From the IMG/VR virus record IMGVR_UViG_3300009431_000080, positions 1-32,494 of that record: a DNA stretch of 32,494 nt, one strand, 5' to 3'. Shown in pieces: positions 4,336 through 31,117 of this stretch. The notes beneath the pieces were generated by a model. The model was given only the letters and a program-made list of their open reading frames with translations, searched no databases and was not told the origin of the DNA. How positions within the stretch are numbered: the first letter of the stretch is position 1; each line of letters opens with the position of its first letter. The stretch is from a virus. The position numbers were made by a program, and so were the translations under genes.

Positions 4336-5709
4336 TTAATAAGATGATAAATGATCTATCTGGGGCATGATTTGGATACGTTGTCCTGATATTTCTTTAT
4401 CAATCATTTGTTGTTTGAGCCGAGAATACTCTATATAATCACCGTCCTTCATGTCAACTCTTGAATCTTTCTTTTTCTTAATTGCCCATGCCAAATAGTG
4501 TACATACATATCGTAATTCAACTCATCAAAAGTATCAGCATCTGAATTAACTACTACAACAGTTTTATAATAGTCCAACCATATGTTCCGACCATCGTAA
4601 TCCGAACTAAGCGCAGGCCAGAAATATAGTATACTCTCAAATACCGTATAAAACTGTGGTGTACCTAAACTAACTCCCTGAAAGATATTATCGCCAGCGG
4701 TGTGGTCATCAGAACCATCGGTTGAAATTGTTAGCACTCCTGTTGCGCGCGTATTTGCACTGTATACGATTGTATCAGTGCTAATTTGAATACTGCCACT
4801 ATCATCAAAATCGCGACTATCAGTTAGGGTTATATTGGCGTCACCAACAGTATAATTAGACGCAAGCGTTGTAATTGGAACGCCTTGTTTATAACTGTCC
4901 CATTGCGCTTTTGTCATTGGATCAATATTGTCCTCATTTTCAATTCGCACACCCAGGATATTCTTGTTAGTGTACGGATCCTGTAAATCAGTTGGCAGAG
5001 CAATATAATAGTCACCAGTGGACAGATTGCCAGCGTCGTAATCAAACTGCTCACGAAAACTCCAGCGTTTCAAAGAGTTATGCACATCACGACGTGCCTG
5101 AAAAAGCATGGTATTCAGGAACTCGTTTGTAATAACATTACCAATTGTTTCGTTTGCCATCTCCAACGCGCGCGTCTTCACTGCACGCACAGTATTATCT
5201 GCATACCCAGTAATAGCAATAGCATCACTGTAACCGCCGTAATAAGTGGCAGCGACCAAAGAATTATAATAACGCACAAAATAATAAGCGTAGGTTGTGC
5301 CCGTAACCACATATGTTGTTTCTGGGGCATCAACTTGTAAATCAACTGTTGCAATAACTGTTTTTGAACCCGTTGCTGTTGTTGCGCCACTAATTTCCAC
5401 TTGATCGAACAATAACTTTGACACGGGCGTATCTACTGCATGCGCGAAATCTGATGCTGCGACAGTAATAGCTGTCACTGATCCCGGCGCACCGCTCTCT
5501 TGTTTAAATTCAGTTTGTTCATGTCCAAGTTTCCCGATTAACAAAATATCTTTATCAGCAAATCCTGTGCTATTGAGCACAGTTAATGCTGTTCCGTTTG
5601 CAACAAGTGCAGCTGACAAATATGTTGACGGTTGATCAGACGTTGTTGGATGAACGATTTTAATTACATTCCCCTTAATTGAGAGAATTTTAGCACTTTC
5701 GTAAGCCAT
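4336..5709 (-). CDS. Head-tail adaptor candidate
   Basis: This 457-residue protein has two parts. Residues about 1-175 are beta-rich and Ala/Thr/Val-rich. Residues about 185-457 contain helices (VKTRALEMANETIGNVITNEFLNTMLFQARRDV is the first) and the pattern FYTVFESILYFWPALSSDY, then LDYYK and LNYDMYVHYLAWAIKKKK. The second part resembles tail adaptor proteins of podoviruses (gp4/tail tubular A-like), in which an alpha-helical bundle binds the portal ring. It ends 14 bases before the nozzle candidate. Assignment is by pattern and gene order; the N-terminal extension is larger than usual for an adaptor. Confidence 0.5.
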   Translation of the reverse strand: MAYESAKILSIKGNVIKIVHPTTSDQPSTYLSAALVANGTALTVLNSTGFADKDILLIGKLGHEQTEFKQESGAPGSVTAITVAASDFAHAVDTPVSKLLFDQVEISGATTATGSKTVIATVDLQVDAPETTYVVTGTTYAYYFVRYYNSLVAATYYGGYSDAIAITGYADNTVRAVKTRALEMANETIGNVITNEFLNTMLFQARRDVHNSLKRWSFREQFDYDAGNLSTGDYYIALPTDLQDPYTNKNILGVRIENEDNIDPMTKAQWDSYKQGVPITTLASNYTVGDANITLTDSRDFDDSGSIQISTDTIVYSANTRATGVLTISTDGSDDHTAGDNIFQGVSLGTPQFYTVFESILYFWPALSSDYDGRNIWLDYYKTVVVVNSDADTFDELNYDMYVHYLAWAIKKKKDSRVDMKDGDYIEYSRLKQQMIDKEISGQRIQIMPQIDHLSSY

Positions 5710-5756: not shown

Positions 5757-5987
5757 TATGCCCAAACTATTCTTTCTTATTTTTTTTGGTTTCTTTGGTT
5801 TAACAAACCGCAACTTCTTTTTATCAAGATTCAATTTAGCTGCTTGTTCAGTAGAATAAATTCCACCTTTTATTTTCTTGCTCTTTTTTGTTTGATCAGG
5901 AACCAAATAAACTGTACTTTGTTTTGTGTTCAAATACTTTTTTGTTAGCTCGGGCAACAGTGATCGTTTGATTTTATAAATCAACAT
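5739..5987 (-). CDS. Small basic hypothetical protein, 82 aa
   Basis: A short protein rich in lysine (KKSKKIKGGIYSTEQAAKLN, then KKKLRFVKPKKPKKIRKNS). The central part looks like a short helix-containing domain and the C-terminus is a basic tail. I recognise no family. It begins one base after the stop of the next upstream membrane protein, so it is translated as part of the lysis-like cassette. Its last codons form the left arm of the stem-loop at 5732-5756. Leader AAACAAATAGT-ATG, without a Shine-Dalgarno site. Confidence 0.6.
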   Translation of the reverse strand: MLIYKIKRSLLPELTKKYLNTKQSTVYLVPDQTKKSKKIKGGIYSTEQAAKLNLDKKKLRFVKPKKPKKIRKNSLGIEPISN

Positions 5988-6205: not shown

Positions 6206-7231
6206 TTATTCTTTAATTATTTTAATTGCTTTTTTCTTGCCATACAATCCGACCAATCTATTCCATTCTGGCTTCGTGACATATAACCAGAGATCTTTAA
6301 CTCTTTTGTGATATACAGCATCAAAGTCCCAATATCCATGTGCCAATCCAGAAATTTCTCGGTTGCTTGGCAACCTTTTTATTTTTCCAAATAACCACGG
6401 ATTGAAAGCTACTGCTTGTTCTAGCAAAAAACAATTCCAAGTTCTTTTTTGCCCATAATATTTATCAACAGGTAAATGTTTAGGTAAATCTATATGTATC
6501 CATCCAAAATATGCGTGTTTATTAAACCATTCCTTTGTCAAATACATCACTCCGTTATCACCCCATTTATCACTGAAACTGTTTATTGCTACTAACACTG
6601 GCACATTATTAATTCGTTTCCAACCGTTTATGCACCAGGCGTGTCCTCCTAGATAATCGTCGTAAGGATCAGTCATAATATATGGAGATTTTAACTTGTT
6701 ATAACTCTTATACCAGTTACATCCACACACTACCCTTGCCTTAAATTGAAACATTGCCTGTCTAACAGTTTCAAAATAATCAGGATGAAGAACCTTTTTG
6801 CCAATTGAATAATAACTTTTGTTGCGGTGTTCTTTGGCATTTTCAATTTGTTTCTGGTTTCTATCAAAGAACAGATACTCAAATAGCTTCAAACTAGAAT
6901 TACTTGGCATTAACGATTCCTCTGCTACGCCCTGTTTTTGCATTACCTGTTGTGCTGTTCTAAAGGAAGTTCCCCATTTTGTGTTACCGTCAAATTGTTT
7001 GCATCTTGAATACAAGTCCCGACTAGATAACCGTTTTCCTTCCTGCGGTTCTTTTGTTATTGTTGTAGTTTCAGCTACACAAGTAGGCAGTTTTTTCTGA
7101 CTTTTAATCCATTCTATTTCTGCAACTGAATACTCTAGTGGAAGCGATTTTGCTCCACCCAGAATATCCTCAACCATATAGTCGTGCCTGTCGCGCTTAT
7201 CCTTGACCGCACCGAGTCCATAGTTTTGCAT
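6206..7231 (-). CDS. Papain-like (peptidase C1) cysteine peptidase
   Basis: This 341-residue protein has the complete papain-type catalytic set in the right order. The nucleophile is Cys51 in LPTCVAETT, with Gln45 in SQKK as a possible oxyanion residue. His197 is in LGGHAWCINGW, and Asn217 is in VAINSFSDKWGDNGVMYL, which matches the NSWG..WG.nG motif of C1A peptidases. The N-terminal GLGAVKDKRDRHDY and LPLEYSV segments are typical of bacterial and phage C1 proteins. No signal peptide or classical cell-wall-binding domain is seen; the last about 100 residues (KHLPVDKYYGQKRTWNCF onward) are of unknown function. The gene is flanked by small membrane proteins, so it may be the lysis enzyme; a virion or host-targeting protease is the alternative. 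No other lysin is present in the window. Confidence 0.85.
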   Translation of the reverse strand: MQNYGLGAVKDKRDRHDYMVEDILGGAKSLPLEYSVAEIEWIKSQKKLPTCVAETTTITKEPQEGKRLSSRDLYSRCKQFDGNTKWGTSFRTAQQVMQKQGVAEESLMPSNSSLKLFEYLFFDRNQKQIENAKEHRNKSYYSIGKKVLHPDYFETVRQAMFQFKARVVCGCNWYKSYNKLKSPYIMTDPYDDYLGGHAWCINGWKRINNVPVLVAINSFSDKWGDNGVMYLTKEWFNKHAYFGWIHIDLPKHLPVDKYYGQKRTWNCFLLEQAVAFNPWLFGKIKRLPSNREISGLAHGYWDFDAVYHKRVKDLWLYVTKPEWNRLVGLYGKKKAIKIIKE

Positions 7232-23791: not shown

Positions 23792-23824
23792 ATTTTTTTG
23801 TTTTAATTTACATAATAAACACAC

Positions 23825-23851: not shown

Positions 23852-23881
23852 TTGACATGTTGTTTGAATGTATGATACAAT
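23852..23881 (+). promoter_or_regulatory. Rightward sigma-70-type promoter
   Basis: TTGACA at 23852-23857, an 18-base spacer and TACAAT at 23876-23881. It starts the plus-strand transcript for the accessory genes from 23960. A 12-bp dyad directly overlaps the expected start of the transcript. Confidence 0.75.
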
Positions 23882-25356: not shown

Positions 25357-26091
25357 ATGACTATTAAACAAGCGCAAAAGATTGCTAAAAAATGGCAAGA
25401 TGACTATCTTGATAACCGGCGAAATTATAATAACAAAAAGTATCATTGTGTAAATGTAAAGCGTTATAATGATTATGTTGATACGGAAGCCCTTTTCAAA
25501 AAATACTACAAAGACAAAAAGCACGCTCAACCAATCAAGGAAGTGCTATCAAACATTGATGGACTTTACGAGATGTTTTTAAATGATGGTTGGGAATTGA
25601 TAAACGATTTTGTCAACGGTTACACTGAGCAAGAATTTCACTGCGTCGGCAATATTTATCAAATGGGTAGAGGGGGTGGTTGGGCATGTTTTGAAACTTC
25701 TGCCGATAGCTATGCGAATGATATTGGCGCGGCACTAAACATTTACGAGCAAACAGAAATGACAAAAGATGAAATATGCTATTATGCAGAAGGAATAGAT
25801 CAAGCAATGCAAGAAATAGACATCTTGAAAAATGAAATTCAGGCCATAAATGCTAACATGGATTTTGAAAGATGGGTCAAAGGTTATTTAAATCATAATA
25901 TTTTGCAGGTTGAATATGAAAAAGAGAATGACAAGAGATTCTTATTTACCGTAATCAGCGACAAGATGACCGATATTGAGCTATTATTAAAGCAATACAG
26001 CACAGACAAGACATACAATACAGCAATCAAGCGCAACATCAAATCAATCAGAGCAATTATTAAGAAGTTTTTAACTGGAAGCCAACAATAG
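25357..26091 (+). CDS. Hypothetical protein with GRGGGW motif, 244 aa
   Basis: Contains GNIYQMGRGGGWACFETS at about residues 98-115. A similar GR-S/G-GGW motif is known to me from widespread phage proteins of unknown function, so this is a tentative match. The rest is charged helix (QEIDILKNEIQAINANMDFE, then TAIKRNIKSIRAIIKKFL). An intergenic stem (GGCAC at 25296-25300, GTGCC at 25318-25322) lies upstream. Leader CATTGACAAT-ATG without a Shine-Dalgarno site. Possible role in early host interaction or DNA metabolism is not supported by specific residues. Confidence 0.6.
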   Translation: MTIKQAQKIAKKWQDDYLDNRRNYNNKKYHCVNVKRYNDYVDTEALFKKYYKDKKHAQPIKEVLSNIDGLYEMFLNDGWELINDFVNGYTEQEFHCVGNIYQMGRGGGWACFETSADSYANDIGAALNIYEQTEMTKDEICYYAEGIDQAMQEIDILKNEIQAINANMDFERWVKGYLNHNILQVEYEKENDKRFLFTVISDKMTDIELLLKQYSTDKTYNTAIKRNIKSIRAIIKKFLTGSQQ

Positions 26092-26110
26092 CAACACTTC
26101 CACAACAAAG

Positions 26111-26149
26111 GCACAAACTCTACGCGGGCAGGGTCAATGTGCTTTTTTT
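26111..26149 (+). terminator. Weak terminator candidate after 244-aa gene
   Basis: GCACA at 26111-26115 pairs with TGTGC at 26138-26142, followed directly by seven T. The stem is short with a long loop. CTACGC and GCGTAG further out could extend a larger fold. Confidence 0.4.
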
Positions 26150-26213
26150 GATTGGTGAGCGTAGGGATGTGAGGACATGTAAAAATAATCATTAACCAAG
26201 TAAACGCGTCGGC

Positions 26214-26240
26214 AATCCAAATTCGCAACGAATTTGGATT
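26214..26240. other. Stem-loop, 12-bp stem, CAA loop
   Basis: AATCCAAATTCG at 26214-26225, loop CAA at 26226-26228 and the perfect complement at 26229-26240. It is the first member of a tri-loop hairpin family found through the replication arm. Confidence 0.7.
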
Positions 26241-26268
26241 AATAGAGAGTGCGTAAGGAATCAAAATA

Positions 26269-26296
26269 AAAAGCACGGGGAAGATCCCGTGCTTTT
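26269..26296. terminator. Strong bidirectional Rho-independent terminator
   Basis: AAAAGCACGGG at 26269-26279, loop of six, and CCCGTGCTTTT at 26286-26296 form an 11-bp GC-rich perfect stem with T and A tails in both directions. It closes the accessory operon before the origin region. Confidence 0.85.
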
Positions 26297-26494
26297 CGCA
26301 TGCGTGTTGCAAACCAGCTTGTCGTCATGACAGAGCAAGTCAGTTGCGAGTTTATACAATCAAGCAAAATCTTTTGAAGATATAAAGCGCGATAGAATAA
26401 TTTGCCCGCTAGTCTAAAAAGTTTTGTTTGACAATTGCGACATCTAGTCAAATTCATCATACAACACGGACGCGAATTTGCCAACCACACAAAC

Positions 26495-26503
26495 TGTGGA
26501 TAA
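26495..26503 (-). promoter_or_regulatory. DnaA box at left edge of the origin candidate
   Basis: TGTGGATAA on the plus strand, i.e. TTATCCACA on the minus strand. Its minus-strand neighbour is TTTGAC, close to a -35-like hexamer. Confidence 0.7.
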
Positions 26504-26561
26504 GTCAAAGTATGAATTCATTGTGAATCCATGCTCGCTCTTTTTCAACCAACAAAGGAAT

Positions 26562-26571
26562 GGGGGGGGGG
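26562..26571. repeat. Homopolymer of ten G
   Basis: A run of ten G residues in the non-coding origin region. It may be a sequencing-sensitive site or a G-quadruplex-type element; nothing else in the window has such a run. Confidence 0.6.
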
Positions 26572-26618
26572 AATCAAAACAGTTGACAAGAATCCAAGAA
26601 TGTTGAAAGGGGGTGGCA

Positions 26619-26631
26619 GGTGGTAGATGAA
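26619..26631 (+). repeat. Origin iteron, copy 1
   Basis: GGTGGTAGATGAA, preceded by a related GGTGGCA. Its inverted partner ATCTACCACC (26691-26700) lies across the AT-rich tract. Confidence 0.75.
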
Positions 26632-26640
26632 TTCCATACC

Positions 26641-26690
26641 TATACTATATTATCTTTTTTCTTATAAATATTATATATATATATATATAC
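26641..26690. other. AT-rich tract, likely duplex-unwinding element
   Basis: Fifty bases almost entirely A/T, with alternating TA at 26671-26689, flanked by inverted GGTGGTAGAT/ATCTACCACC repeats. Suits strand separation at an origin. Confidence 0.6.
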
Positions 26691-26717
26691 ATCTACCACC
26701 TACCACCACTACCATGT
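26691..26717 (-). repeat. Inverted iteron with TACCACC units
   Basis: ATCTACCACC at 26691-26700 is the complement of copy 1, followed by TACCACCACTACC, partial tandem units of the same motif. Confidence 0.65.
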
Positions 26718-26746
26718 CTATGTTGTAAATTTACACAAAAAAAGAC

Positions 26747-26793
26747 GGTGGTAGATGAAAATTCATCTACCACCCACCTACCACCTACCACCC
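26747..26793. repeat. Iteron palindrome 2
   Basis: GGTGGTAGATGAA at 26747-26759, two A residues, and its exact complement at 26762-26774, then CACCTACCACCTACCACC tandem units up to 26793. A 13-bp inverted repeat. Confidence 0.8.
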
Positions 26794-26799
26794 TAAAAA

Positions 26800-26828
26800 T
26801 TGACTTTTAATTTATTTATGGCTATTTT
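26800..26828 (+). promoter_or_regulatory. Promoter candidate inside the origin
   Basis: TTGACT at 26800-26805, 17-base spacer, TATTTT at 26823-26828. Reads rightward through iteron palindrome 3; could make an RNA for origin activation. Moderate match only. Confidence 0.4.
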
Positions 26829-26861
26829 TTGACAATTTGCGCAAGTGCTGGTGGCAGGTGA

Positions 26862-26888
26862 GGTGGTAGATGAAATTCATCTACCACC
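26862..26888. repeat. Iteron palindrome 3
   Basis: GGTGGTAGATGAA at 26862-26874, one A, and its exact complement at 26876-26888. Preceded by GGTGGCAGGTGA, as copy 1 is by GGTGGCA. Confidence 0.8.
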
Positions 26889-26928
26889 AATTAGCTTGTC
26901 AATATAATAAATTTGTTGTAAGAATAAC

Positions 26929-26950
26929 GAGCTTGCAACAAGCTCATTTT
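26929..26950 (+). terminator. Stem-loop, CAA loop, with T-run
   Basis: GAGCTTG at 26929-26935, CAA loop, CAAGCTC at 26939-26945, then ATTTTT. It would end a transcript coming out of the origin before the helicase promoter. Member of the CAA/TTG-loop hairpin family. Confidence 0.6.
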
Positions 26951-26959
26951 TGTGGATAA
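26951..26959 (-). promoter_or_regulatory. DnaA box beside the helicase promoter
   Basis: TGTGGATAA (TTATCCACA on the minus strand), eight bases before the -35 of the helicase promoter. Confidence 0.7.
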
Positions 26960-26967
26960 CTCAACGT

Positions 26968-26996
26968 TTGACGGCTTCAAAAACATCAATTATAAT
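26968..26996 (+). promoter_or_regulatory. Strong sigma-70-type promoter for the helicase operon
   Basis: TTGACG at 26968-26973, 17-base spacer, perfect TATAAT at 26991-26996. The transcript would start at about 27002-27004, exactly where segment A of the structured leader begins, giving a 5' leader of about 118 bases. Confidence 0.8.
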
Positions 26997-27001
26997 GAAG
27001 A

Positions 27002-27092
27002 TATATGATGATCAAAAGACCACCAGCAACAAAAAAACGACAACTTACGGGTTGGCTTTTTTTCATCATATAGTTGTTGGTGGTCTTTTGAT
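27002..27092 (+). promoter_or_regulatory. Structured 5' leader of the helicase gene (pseudoknot/switch)
   Basis: Segment A (TATATGATG, 27002-27010) is followed directly by B (27011-27030). A' (CATCATATA, 27064-27072) is followed by B' (27073-27092). A pairs perfectly with A' (9 bp) and B pairs with B' over 20 positions with one G-U. The order A-B-A'-B' means both can form only as a pseudoknot, or they exclude each other. Between them A7...CAAC/GTTG...T7 looks like a weak terminator (27031-27063). This suggests attenuation or copy-number control of the helicase. Confidence 0.7.
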
Positions 27093-27093
27093 T

Positions 27094-27110
27094 GAGCTCG
27101 CAACAAGCTC
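27094..27110 (+). other. Stem-loop just before helicase start
   Basis: GAGCTCG-CAA-CAAGCTC, nearly the same as 26929-26945. It ends 11 bases before the ATG at 27122, so it can influence translation. Confidence 0.55.
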
Positions 27111-27121
27111 AATATAATGAT

Positions 27122-28555
27122 ATGACAGATAAATTAACAAAATTAAAACGCAAAAACGCAGAAATTAAAGCTCGCCAAAAGGTTGTTCAGACCACTGAAT
27201 TATATGTTAAGGAGGTTGGCAAAACCCTTATATATTGCCGGAGTTGGGGGCGGTTTTTGTATTATAATGATAAGTATTTTGAGCTTTTGCAGACGCACAG
27301 ATTACAGAAGATGTTATGGGATTTTCTCAAAGATTTTGACATAAAATTTGACATTACGCCAGCATTTTTGTCGTCTGTAATTGATGCAATCAAAATAAAC
27401 ACGGAATATAATATCTCAGATCACGAGTTAGCGCACAACTATTTCGCGTTCAATGATACACTTCTTAATACAGACACATTTAAATGCGAGGATTTTTCAC
27501 TCGATATTCCATGTTTCAAATATATAGATATTGACCTTAAATCTACGCCCAACAAACCAATGCCAGTATTTGACAAGTATATTGAGTCGTCGCTTGTTTA
27601 TGAAGAAGACAACATGTCTCCGGATCAAGGACTCATAGATCTTTATCAAGAAATGTGGGGCATGTTATTTTCAGCGCATAGGGACGCAAGTAAAGTGTTC
27701 TTTTTGAAAGGCACAGGAGACAATGGCAAATCAATTACTACCGAATTGATGATACGCGCGCTAGGCGAACAGTATGTCAGTGCGTCGTCATTGCAAAAAC
27801 TCACCTCTGACAATTTTGGCAGGCAGGCTCTGGTAGGCAAGATTCTAAATGTGTGTTCAGAAGAAGAATCAACCAAAATTAAGAATGACGCGTTTAAAGC
27901 ACTCGTGACAGGCGAACTCATCACTGCGGAACGGAAGTTTGAGAACGCGTTCGACTTCCATCCACGTGCGAAATTCGTATTCGCAACAAACGACGCACCG
28001 AACTTCATGAACCTCGAATACGCAATGAAAAAACGAATGACCATAATTCCGTGGTATGCACAGTTCCCCAAAGGAGACCCACAACGCGTCGACGGACTAC
28101 TAGAAAAACTCATCAAAGAGCTCCCACAAATCGTCGTGTGGGCACTCAAAGGACTCAAACGCCTCCAACAAAACCACTTCATATTCACCGAATCAGAATC
28201 AACGCAATACGAAATGCGAGAACTCATGACAGCATCCACATCAGCACGACCGTATATATACGAAAATTATGATATTCTCACAAAAGACGAAATCAAAAAC
28301 GACACTGAACCGCTTAATATTAGCACAGACATTTACCCAAATTACAAAAATTGGTGCATATCAAATGGATTCCAAGCAATGAGCGTTATAACACTCGGCA
28401 AACGAATAACACAGATCGAAGGAATGAGGAAAGCCAAACGGAAAAATAATACATATTATTATTTAAGACCAAAGGAAACACGGGTAAATATGAACGAGAA
28501 CGAGGTAATACCGTCCGAAGAGTTTCAGGACGCCAATACTCAAATTCCGTTTTAG
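27122..28555 (+). CDS. SF3 replicative helicase (D5/P4-type)
   Basis: Preferred start ATG at 27122 (MTDKLTKLKR, 477 residues); a TTG ten codons upstream lies inside the stem-loop and is not used. The SF3 helicase core is complete: Walker A GTGDNGKS (197-204), Walker B ILNVCSEEE (about 241-249), sensor FATND (287-291) and an arginine finger region KKRMTIIPW (303-311). The N-terminal 150 residues resemble the D5_N segment seen before phage/plasmid helicases, but no AEP-type primase motifs are seen. The C-terminal 100 residues look like a winged-helix domain (TLGKRITQIEGMRKAKRKNN). It would unwind the origin directly to its left. Codon use changes about halfway (see findings). Confidence 0.92.
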   Translation: MTDKLTKLKRKNAEIKARQKVVQTTELYVKEVGKTLIYCRSWGRFLYYNDKYFELLQTHRLQKMLWDFLKDFDIKFDITPAFLSSVIDAIKINTEYNISDHELAHNYFAFNDTLLNTDTFKCEDFSLDIPCFKYIDIDLKSTPNKPMPVFDKYIESSLVYEEDNMSPDQGLIDLYQEMWGMLFSAHRDASKVFFLKGTGDNGKSITTELMIRALGEQYVSASSLQKLTSDNFGRQALVGKILNVCSEEESTKIKNDAFKALVTGELITAERKFENAFDFHPRAKFVFATNDAPNFMNLEYAMKKRMTIIPWYAQFPKGDPQRVDGLLEKLIKELPQIVVWALKGLKRLQQNHFIFTESESTQYEMRELMTASTSARPYIYENYDILTKDEIKNDTEPLNISTDIYPNYKNWCISNGFQAMSVITLGKRITQIEGMRKAKRKNNTYYYLRPKETRVNMNENEVIPSEEFQDANTQIPF

Positions 28556-28562
28556 GTTAAAA

Positions 28563-28583
28563 TTTAGCTCGCAACGAGCTAAA
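28563..28583 (+). other. Perfect stem-loop, CAA loop
   Basis: TTTAGCTCG at 28563-28571, CAA at 28572-28574 and CGAGCTAAA at 28575-28583, 9 bases before the ATG of the zinc-finger gene. Member of the CAA/TTG-loop family. Confidence 0.7.
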
Positions 28584-30196: not shown

Positions 30197-30201
30197 TTTA
30201 G

Positions 30202-30217
30202 AACTCGTCTACGAGTT
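30202..30217. other. Stem-loop after the regulator
   Basis: AACTCGT-CT-ACGAGTT, a variant of the replication-arm hairpin family with a shorter loop. It lies after the regulator stop codon, with outer TTTA/TAAA pairing. Confidence 0.6.
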
Positions 30218-30709: not shown

Positions 30710-30730
30710 TTAAGCTCGCAACAAGTTTAA
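30710..30730. other. Stem-loop, CAA loop
   Basis: TTAAGCTCG at 30710-30718, CAA loop, CAAGTTTAA at 30722-30730; one mismatch and one G-U pair. It directly follows the SSB-like gene. Confidence 0.55.
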
Positions 30731-30837: not shown

Positions 30838-30864
30838 ATACTGAACTCGTTGCGAGTTTAGTAT
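30838..30864. other. Stem-loop, TTG loop
   Basis: ATACTGAACTCG at 30838-30849, TTG loop, CGAGTTTAGTAT at 30853-30864 with one G-U-type pair. It ends 7 bases before the ATG at 30872, so it is close enough to affect translation. Confidence 0.6.
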
Positions 30865-30871
30865 CACAAAT

Positions 30872-31117
30872 ATGAAGACAACAAAAATTACACAATCAAT
30901 TGGACGTACAATTCAGCTGAACGAGAACGACTACATTAAACTCCATATTAGCCGTGAAGCGGAGATTGGGTTCATATACGATGCTGTGACAGACGCAGTC
31001 ACTGAGGAAGATCCAGTGCACTGTCAGCAAGATTTATTCAAGCAAATTAAAAAAGAATTAAACCAGCAGGCGAAAGATTTGCTTGCAAAAGCGTATGATA
31101 AAACCCACAATCACTAA
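30872..31117 (+). CDS. Hypothetical protein, 81 aa
   Basis: An alpha/beta small protein: MKTTKITQSIGRTIQLNEND, then YIKLHISREAEIGFIYDAVT and a charged helix KKELNQQAKDLLAKAYDKTH. The family is not recognised. It overlaps the nuclease gene start by 23 bases, so it is coupled with it. May be a partner of the nuclease, on position only. Confidence 0.6.
   Translation: MKTTKITQSIGRTIQLNENDYIKLHISREAEIGFIYDAVTDAVTEEDPVHCQQDLFKQIKKELNQQAKDLLAKAYDKTHNH

Follow-up and report, generated by a model that had tools for sequence, protein, structure and literature searches.

Which fold does the mRNA leader of a phage replication helicase adopt when four complementary segments in the order A-B-A'-B' lie between its promoter and its start codon, and what might such a leader do beside a replication origin? 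In the window, which is the entire virus record of 32,494 bases, the late genes occupy the minus strand as far as about position 23,824, and the plus strand carries the early and replication genes. The helicase gene (27122-28555, plus strand) starts with ATG and encodes a P4/D5-type (SF3) replication helicase of 477 amino acids with DUF5906 and a C-terminal Pox_D5 domain; it is followed by genes for a small Zn-ribbon primase protein, a Dam methylase, an HTH regulator, a 134-aa ORF and an exonuclease. Upstream of the helicase gene lie 1.03 kb of non-coding DNA, which contain a terminator-like hairpin (26269-26297), a putative replication origin (26612-26889, no strand assigned) in which inverted arrays of palindromic GGTGGYA iterons lie on either side of an AT-rich tract, a TTATCCACA box (26951), the promoter and the leader. 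Palindromic repeats of other sequence are also present upstream of P4/D5 helicase genes in Paenibacillus phage LincolnB, Phocaeicola phage PV4-TP1 and a relative designated L006, which is described below. The sigma-70-type promoter of the leader (26968-26996, plus strand), described as perfect in the original prediction, was confirmed in its location by a consensus scan, but it matches at 11 of 12 positions (TTGACG, 17 nt, TATAAT) and is near-perfect; the expected transcription start is about position 27003. Exact TTATCCACA boxes, the DnaA-box consensus, occur six times in the window compared with 0.44 expected (23085, 23825, 26495, 26951, 29900 and 29917), and three of the six are situated at, or not more than 30 bp upstream of, -35 boxes.

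All four segments are located on the plus strand, and their coordinates and complementarity turned out to be exactly as predicted. Segment A (TATATGATG, 27002-27010) lies at the expected transcript start and forms nine of nine Watson-Crick pairs with A' (CATCATATA, 27064-27072), which directly adjoins B' (27073-27092). Segment B (27011-27030) forms 20 of 20 pairs with B', comprising 19 Watson-Crick pairs and one G-U pair (27026:27077), and the loop of this stem has 42 nt. The weak terminator that had been noticed in the loop is likewise present: between B and A' (27031-27063) there are A7 (27031-27037), a small hairpin CAACU/GGUUG of about -3 kcal/mol and T7 (27057-27063), a tail ranking in the top 0.07% among the window positions. 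The arrangement as a whole is significant, as it is found in the native window and in none of 20 whole-window dinucleotide shuffles when at least 8 is demanded for A and at least 12 for B. A search of the window with Rfam 15 gave no match at gathering score, and the C4 antisense RNA family (RF01695) gave none on 26090-27200 even at E-values up to 5; sub-threshold matches to microRNA families reflect the long stems only. An open frame of 22 codons (MMIKRPPATKKRQLTGWLFFII) begins with the ATG at 27005, at or just after the transcription start, and has its stop codon at the A'/B' junction (27071-27073). We rejected it as a leader peptide, because a frame of this length is likely by chance, lacks a Shine-Dalgarno sequence and is absent in L006.

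Folding of the leader revealed that the pairing of A extends beyond the nine base pairs noted before. It forms the base of a 20-pair hairpin of -18 kcal/mol, here called state 1, which borrows part of B by pairing 27014-27024 with 27050-27060. State 2 consists of B:B' together with the A7/T7 hairpin and reaches about -36 kcal/mol. Both are more stable than expected (state 1, z -5.4, 0 of 1000 randomizations; state 2, z -8.4, 0 of 500), and the native energy of state 1 was reached in 1 of 2000 trials when the nine bases of A alone were permuted and in none of 2000 when the loop alone was shuffled. In a growing transcript, state 1 is the best fold as long as the RNA ends between about 27066 and 27082, and state 2 takes over from 27084 on. 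Computation supports A:A' and B:B' as mutually exclusive folds that would succeed each other in an order set by synthesis. This is in line with one of the two options originally considered, alternation as a switch, with which both the energetics and the order of synthesis agree and whose segment order recurs in L006. The other option, a pseudoknot in which A:A' and B:B' exist simultaneously, does account for the complementarity of all four segments, but A and B as well as A' and B' follow each other with linkers of 0 nt, and by geometry two helices of very different length (9 and 20 bp) would be forced to share both ends. Moreover, the loss of 8-10 pairs from B:B', which would be cut to 10-12 pairs (from -30 to about -13 to -17 kcal/mol), outweighs the gain from A:A' (about -6 to -7 kcal/mol). 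Because of the missing linkers and the net energy loss we treat the two pairings as alternatives and give the pseudoknot a negligible chance. State 1 leaves bases 27025-27048 unpaired and thereby provides B' with a toehold for strand displacement. Both states leave most of the helicase AUG unpaired, so that translational control is not implied, and sequestration of the helicase start was rejected for this reason.

To find relatives, IMG/VR and GTDB genomes were scanned with the helicase, alignments and fragments, and L006 was the only close relative obtained from these scans (helicase 38% identical); its primase, 134-aa-ORF and exonuclease genes match as well. No matches were obtained when the DNA patterns of leader and iterons were used for scanning, nor with phage blastn. 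In front of the L006 helicase gene we found, in this order, palindromic iterons (GGGTGCAGTAA), TTATCCACA, a short palindrome, a TATAAT element without a well-spaced -35 box and a 29-bp stem enclosing a loop of 39 nt (B and B', 5702-5730/5770-5798). Six T's follow this stem, as in an intrinsic terminator. These elements and the leader segments come in the same order as in the window, and the leader sequence is unrelated: CAGGT (A, 5693-5697) lies just 5' of B, ACCTG (A', 5765-5769) directly adjoins B', and there is no U-tract between B and A'. The 5-bp A:A' pairing has a probability of 0.97 at RNA end 5770 and of 0 after the synthesis of B'. Tested as a prediction, the abutting 5-mer has a chance of 0.005 by permutation and of 0.03-0.06 in looser duplex tests. 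As the test was devised after the window had been seen and the pairing comprises only 5 bp, the segment order in L006 supports conservation of the arrangement without proving it. Each of the two phages has two imperfect inverted repeats of the size of the leader stem, one located in the iterons and the other in the leader; control loci from the terminase region, 44 kb in total, have none. Furthermore, the two stems contain three transition-type non-Watson-Crick pairs, and all three are G-U when read in the helicase mRNA sense.

The L006 leader also contains a 3' scaffold resembling that of TnpB guide RNAs (omegaRNA; 5796-5905), which lies 13 nt before the helicase start codon. Positions 5796-5897, directly 3' of the stem, align with the region 3' of archaeal tnpB genes and end in GGTAGTTCAC, as do TnpB guide RNAs. 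The TnpB gene of L006 (8606-9766) is located downstream and separately and does not have this scaffold at its own 3' end; the putative guide would correspond to the beginning of the helicase gene. We rejected the L006 stem as a part of the omegaRNA, because the match to the tnpB flank begins at about 5796-5798 and the stem lies outside.

What could the two successive folds be used for? The leader has the appearance of an RNA control switch next to the phage replication origin, and we tentatively favor a helicase mRNA leader that acts in cis, folds in two successive steps and serves as a transcription attenuator. Attenuation appears the most likely use because the GC-rich part of B:B' immediately precedes a U-tract, TTTTGATT in the 3' part of B' in the window (27086-27093) and TTTTTTATT in L006, and, in the manner of intrinsic terminators, this U-tract pairs with an A-tract in the 5' arm. 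RNA polymerase would start at about 27003, and state 1 (A:A' and part of B) would fold behind it. Emerging B' would then invade via the free loop bases 27025-27030 to form the long B:B' stem, a putative terminator just upstream of the helicase gene, and state 1 would serve as an early antiterminator that holds B during the passage of the polymerase. Read-through might be set by the speed of the polymerase or by a protein or RNA binding to A or A'. The element may thus set the level of the helicase, as originally proposed. The flip from state 1 to state 2 takes place at RNA ends 27082-27084, and with the polymerase at 27087-27093, most assumed lengths of the exit channel leave state 1 as the preferred fold of the emerged RNA. 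As state 1 is favored under most of these assumptions while the polymerase is located at the U-tract, an attenuator with state 1 as antiterminator seems to be the most economical reading. It also speaks for an attenuator that state 1 begins at the predicted start of an 11/12 promoter and that an earlier, exclusive stem shares an arm with the putative terminator stem, with a parallel in L006. On the other side, the terminator-type score of B:B' in the window is borderline (d 0.1) with a loop of 42 nt, compared with a clearly positive score of the L006 stem (d 20-28), and there is one relative only, whose A:A' has 5 bp, whose promoter has no well-spaced -35 box and whose leader carries the omegaRNA-like scaffold. 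The likeness to classical transcription attenuators lies in an early alternative stem that shares the 5' arm of a later stem with a U-tract; the window differs in that its putative terminator is borderline by score, and control by a ligand or leader peptide would be hypothetical here. A plausible stop site is the U-tract of the stem itself (27086-27093). Termination at 27063, where read-through was originally to be measured, cannot be controlled by A' and B', because both are synthesized later, and read-through after 27063 would accordingly not report on them.

Part of these observations would also fit other functions. It is a somewhat doubtful but serious possibility that B:B' is a 5'-terminal stem which shields the 5' end of the helicase mRNA or is cut by RNase III, with A:A' merely pairing the 5' end early. 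Such a role would be in agreement with a near-perfect 20-bp duplex close to the 5' end, with the 29-bp stem in L006 and with the start codon remaining open, and the other strong early promoter of the window, which is directed rightward (TTGACA-18-TACAAT, 23852-23881), is predicted to produce a transcript opening with a 12-bp stem-loop at about +1 (23885-23896/23915-23926, z -3 to -4.4). However, a protective stem leaves unexplained why A' abuts B' in both phages and why state 1 is unexpectedly strong. We consider it rather unlikely that the inverted repeat acts as DNA, that is, as an extruded stem-loop origin for assembly of the SF3 helicase, of the kind found in plasmid pRN1 and phage BIP-1. 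Plasmid pRN1 requires a stem-loop adjoining its SF3 helicase gene, with a 21-nt stem and a 58-nt loop at 75°C, of which the structure is conserved and the sequence is not (PMC4234260). The same combination of a stem of about 20 bp, a loop of 40-60 nt and an adjacent SF3 helicase gene is encountered here, with a 20-bp stem and 42-nt loop in the window and 29 bp and 39 nt in L006, and GGTGGT, which the stem has in common with the iterons, is present in both arms. In contrast to pRN1, the element is located 5' and not 3' of the gene, in a predicted transcribed leader with iterons nearby, and the helicase is not fused to an archaeal-type primase. A putative conventional origin, the iteron/AT-rich array, is already present 120 bp upstream, and the position of A at +1, state 1 and the polarity of the G-U pairs point to RNA.

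An RNA acting in trans is unlikely as well. Transcription would stop at T7 (27057-27063), and the short A-B RNA would pair with A' or B' of the read-through mRNA. The IsrK-orf45 leader of the Salmonella prophage Gifsy-1 offers a precedent, in which a promoter-proximal RNA is complementary to its own downstream leader in the read-through mRNA of a phage regulatory operon and two alternative structures exist (PMC4825925). IsrK differs from the window in that its terminator is a real one and translation is gated by a leader ORF, and its target is an antirepressor and not a helicase. As cited in the same source, the CI RNA of phage P4 pairs with two sites, seqA and seqC, in the leader of a replication operon; there, too, a P4/D5-class helicase and complementary segments within one transcript are involved (PMC4825925). 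CI is a processed immunity RNA acting in trans; the loop terminator of the window is weak. A segment of the CI type would be complementary to one site upstream and one site downstream in the leader of the replication operon. The pairing partners of B, namely B' and in part 27050-27060, are both located downstream of B, and there is no upstream target. The T7 tail is exceptionally T-rich, but the terminator hairpin has only about -3 kcal/mol, L006 is devoid of a U-tract between B and A', and neither C4 nor any other Rfam family matched. The C4 antisense RNA of phages P1 and P7 resembles the leader in having two complementary pairs inside a single phage transcript and differs from it in the downstream gene as well as in the missing covariance-model match. 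Finally, the repeats could have arisen without function, through template switching or iteron turnover close to the origin, since the right arm, when reversed, corresponds to the left arm in circularly permuted form (B then A), which a rearranged duplication might produce; that L006 shows the same order in an unrelated sequence makes this very improbable.

Returning to the attenuator, the leader is new in its details and belongs to a kind of element that is already known. It is conceivable, although we regard it as doubtful, that it represents an undescribed class of helicase leaders in phages that combine a P4/D5-type helicase with an iteron origin, characterized by the A-B-A'-B' order, A at +1 and A' abutting B', with the order kept and the sequence changing. 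The timing of co-transcriptional strand displacement would then meter the synthesis of the helicase and hence replication. If true, a compact timer consisting of RNA only would be placed between the phage origin and the gene of the initiator helicase, with its structure kept and its sequence not. Leaders of this type would escape sequence searches, and the segment order alone may be sufficient to locate similar leaders upstream of many SF3 helicase genes.

In addition to the leader stem, a small hairpin (GAGCTCG-CAA-CAAGCTC, 27094-27110, plus strand) ends 11 nt before the helicase ATG. It belongs to a short palindrome (approximately AGCTCG-CAA-CGAGCT) that is repeated in the early region, with eight pattern matches compared with about one expected and copies at 26929-26945, 27094-27110, 28565-28581, 30201-30217, 30712-30728 and 30843-30859. 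Three copies end 11-12 nt 5' of start codons, those of the helicase, the Zn-ribbon primase and the gene at 30872, all of which are without a Shine-Dalgarno sequence. The repeated palindrome could be a common RNA or DNA operator. Amid the late genes, the phage also encodes a papain-family cysteine protease domain (6206-7231, minus strand).
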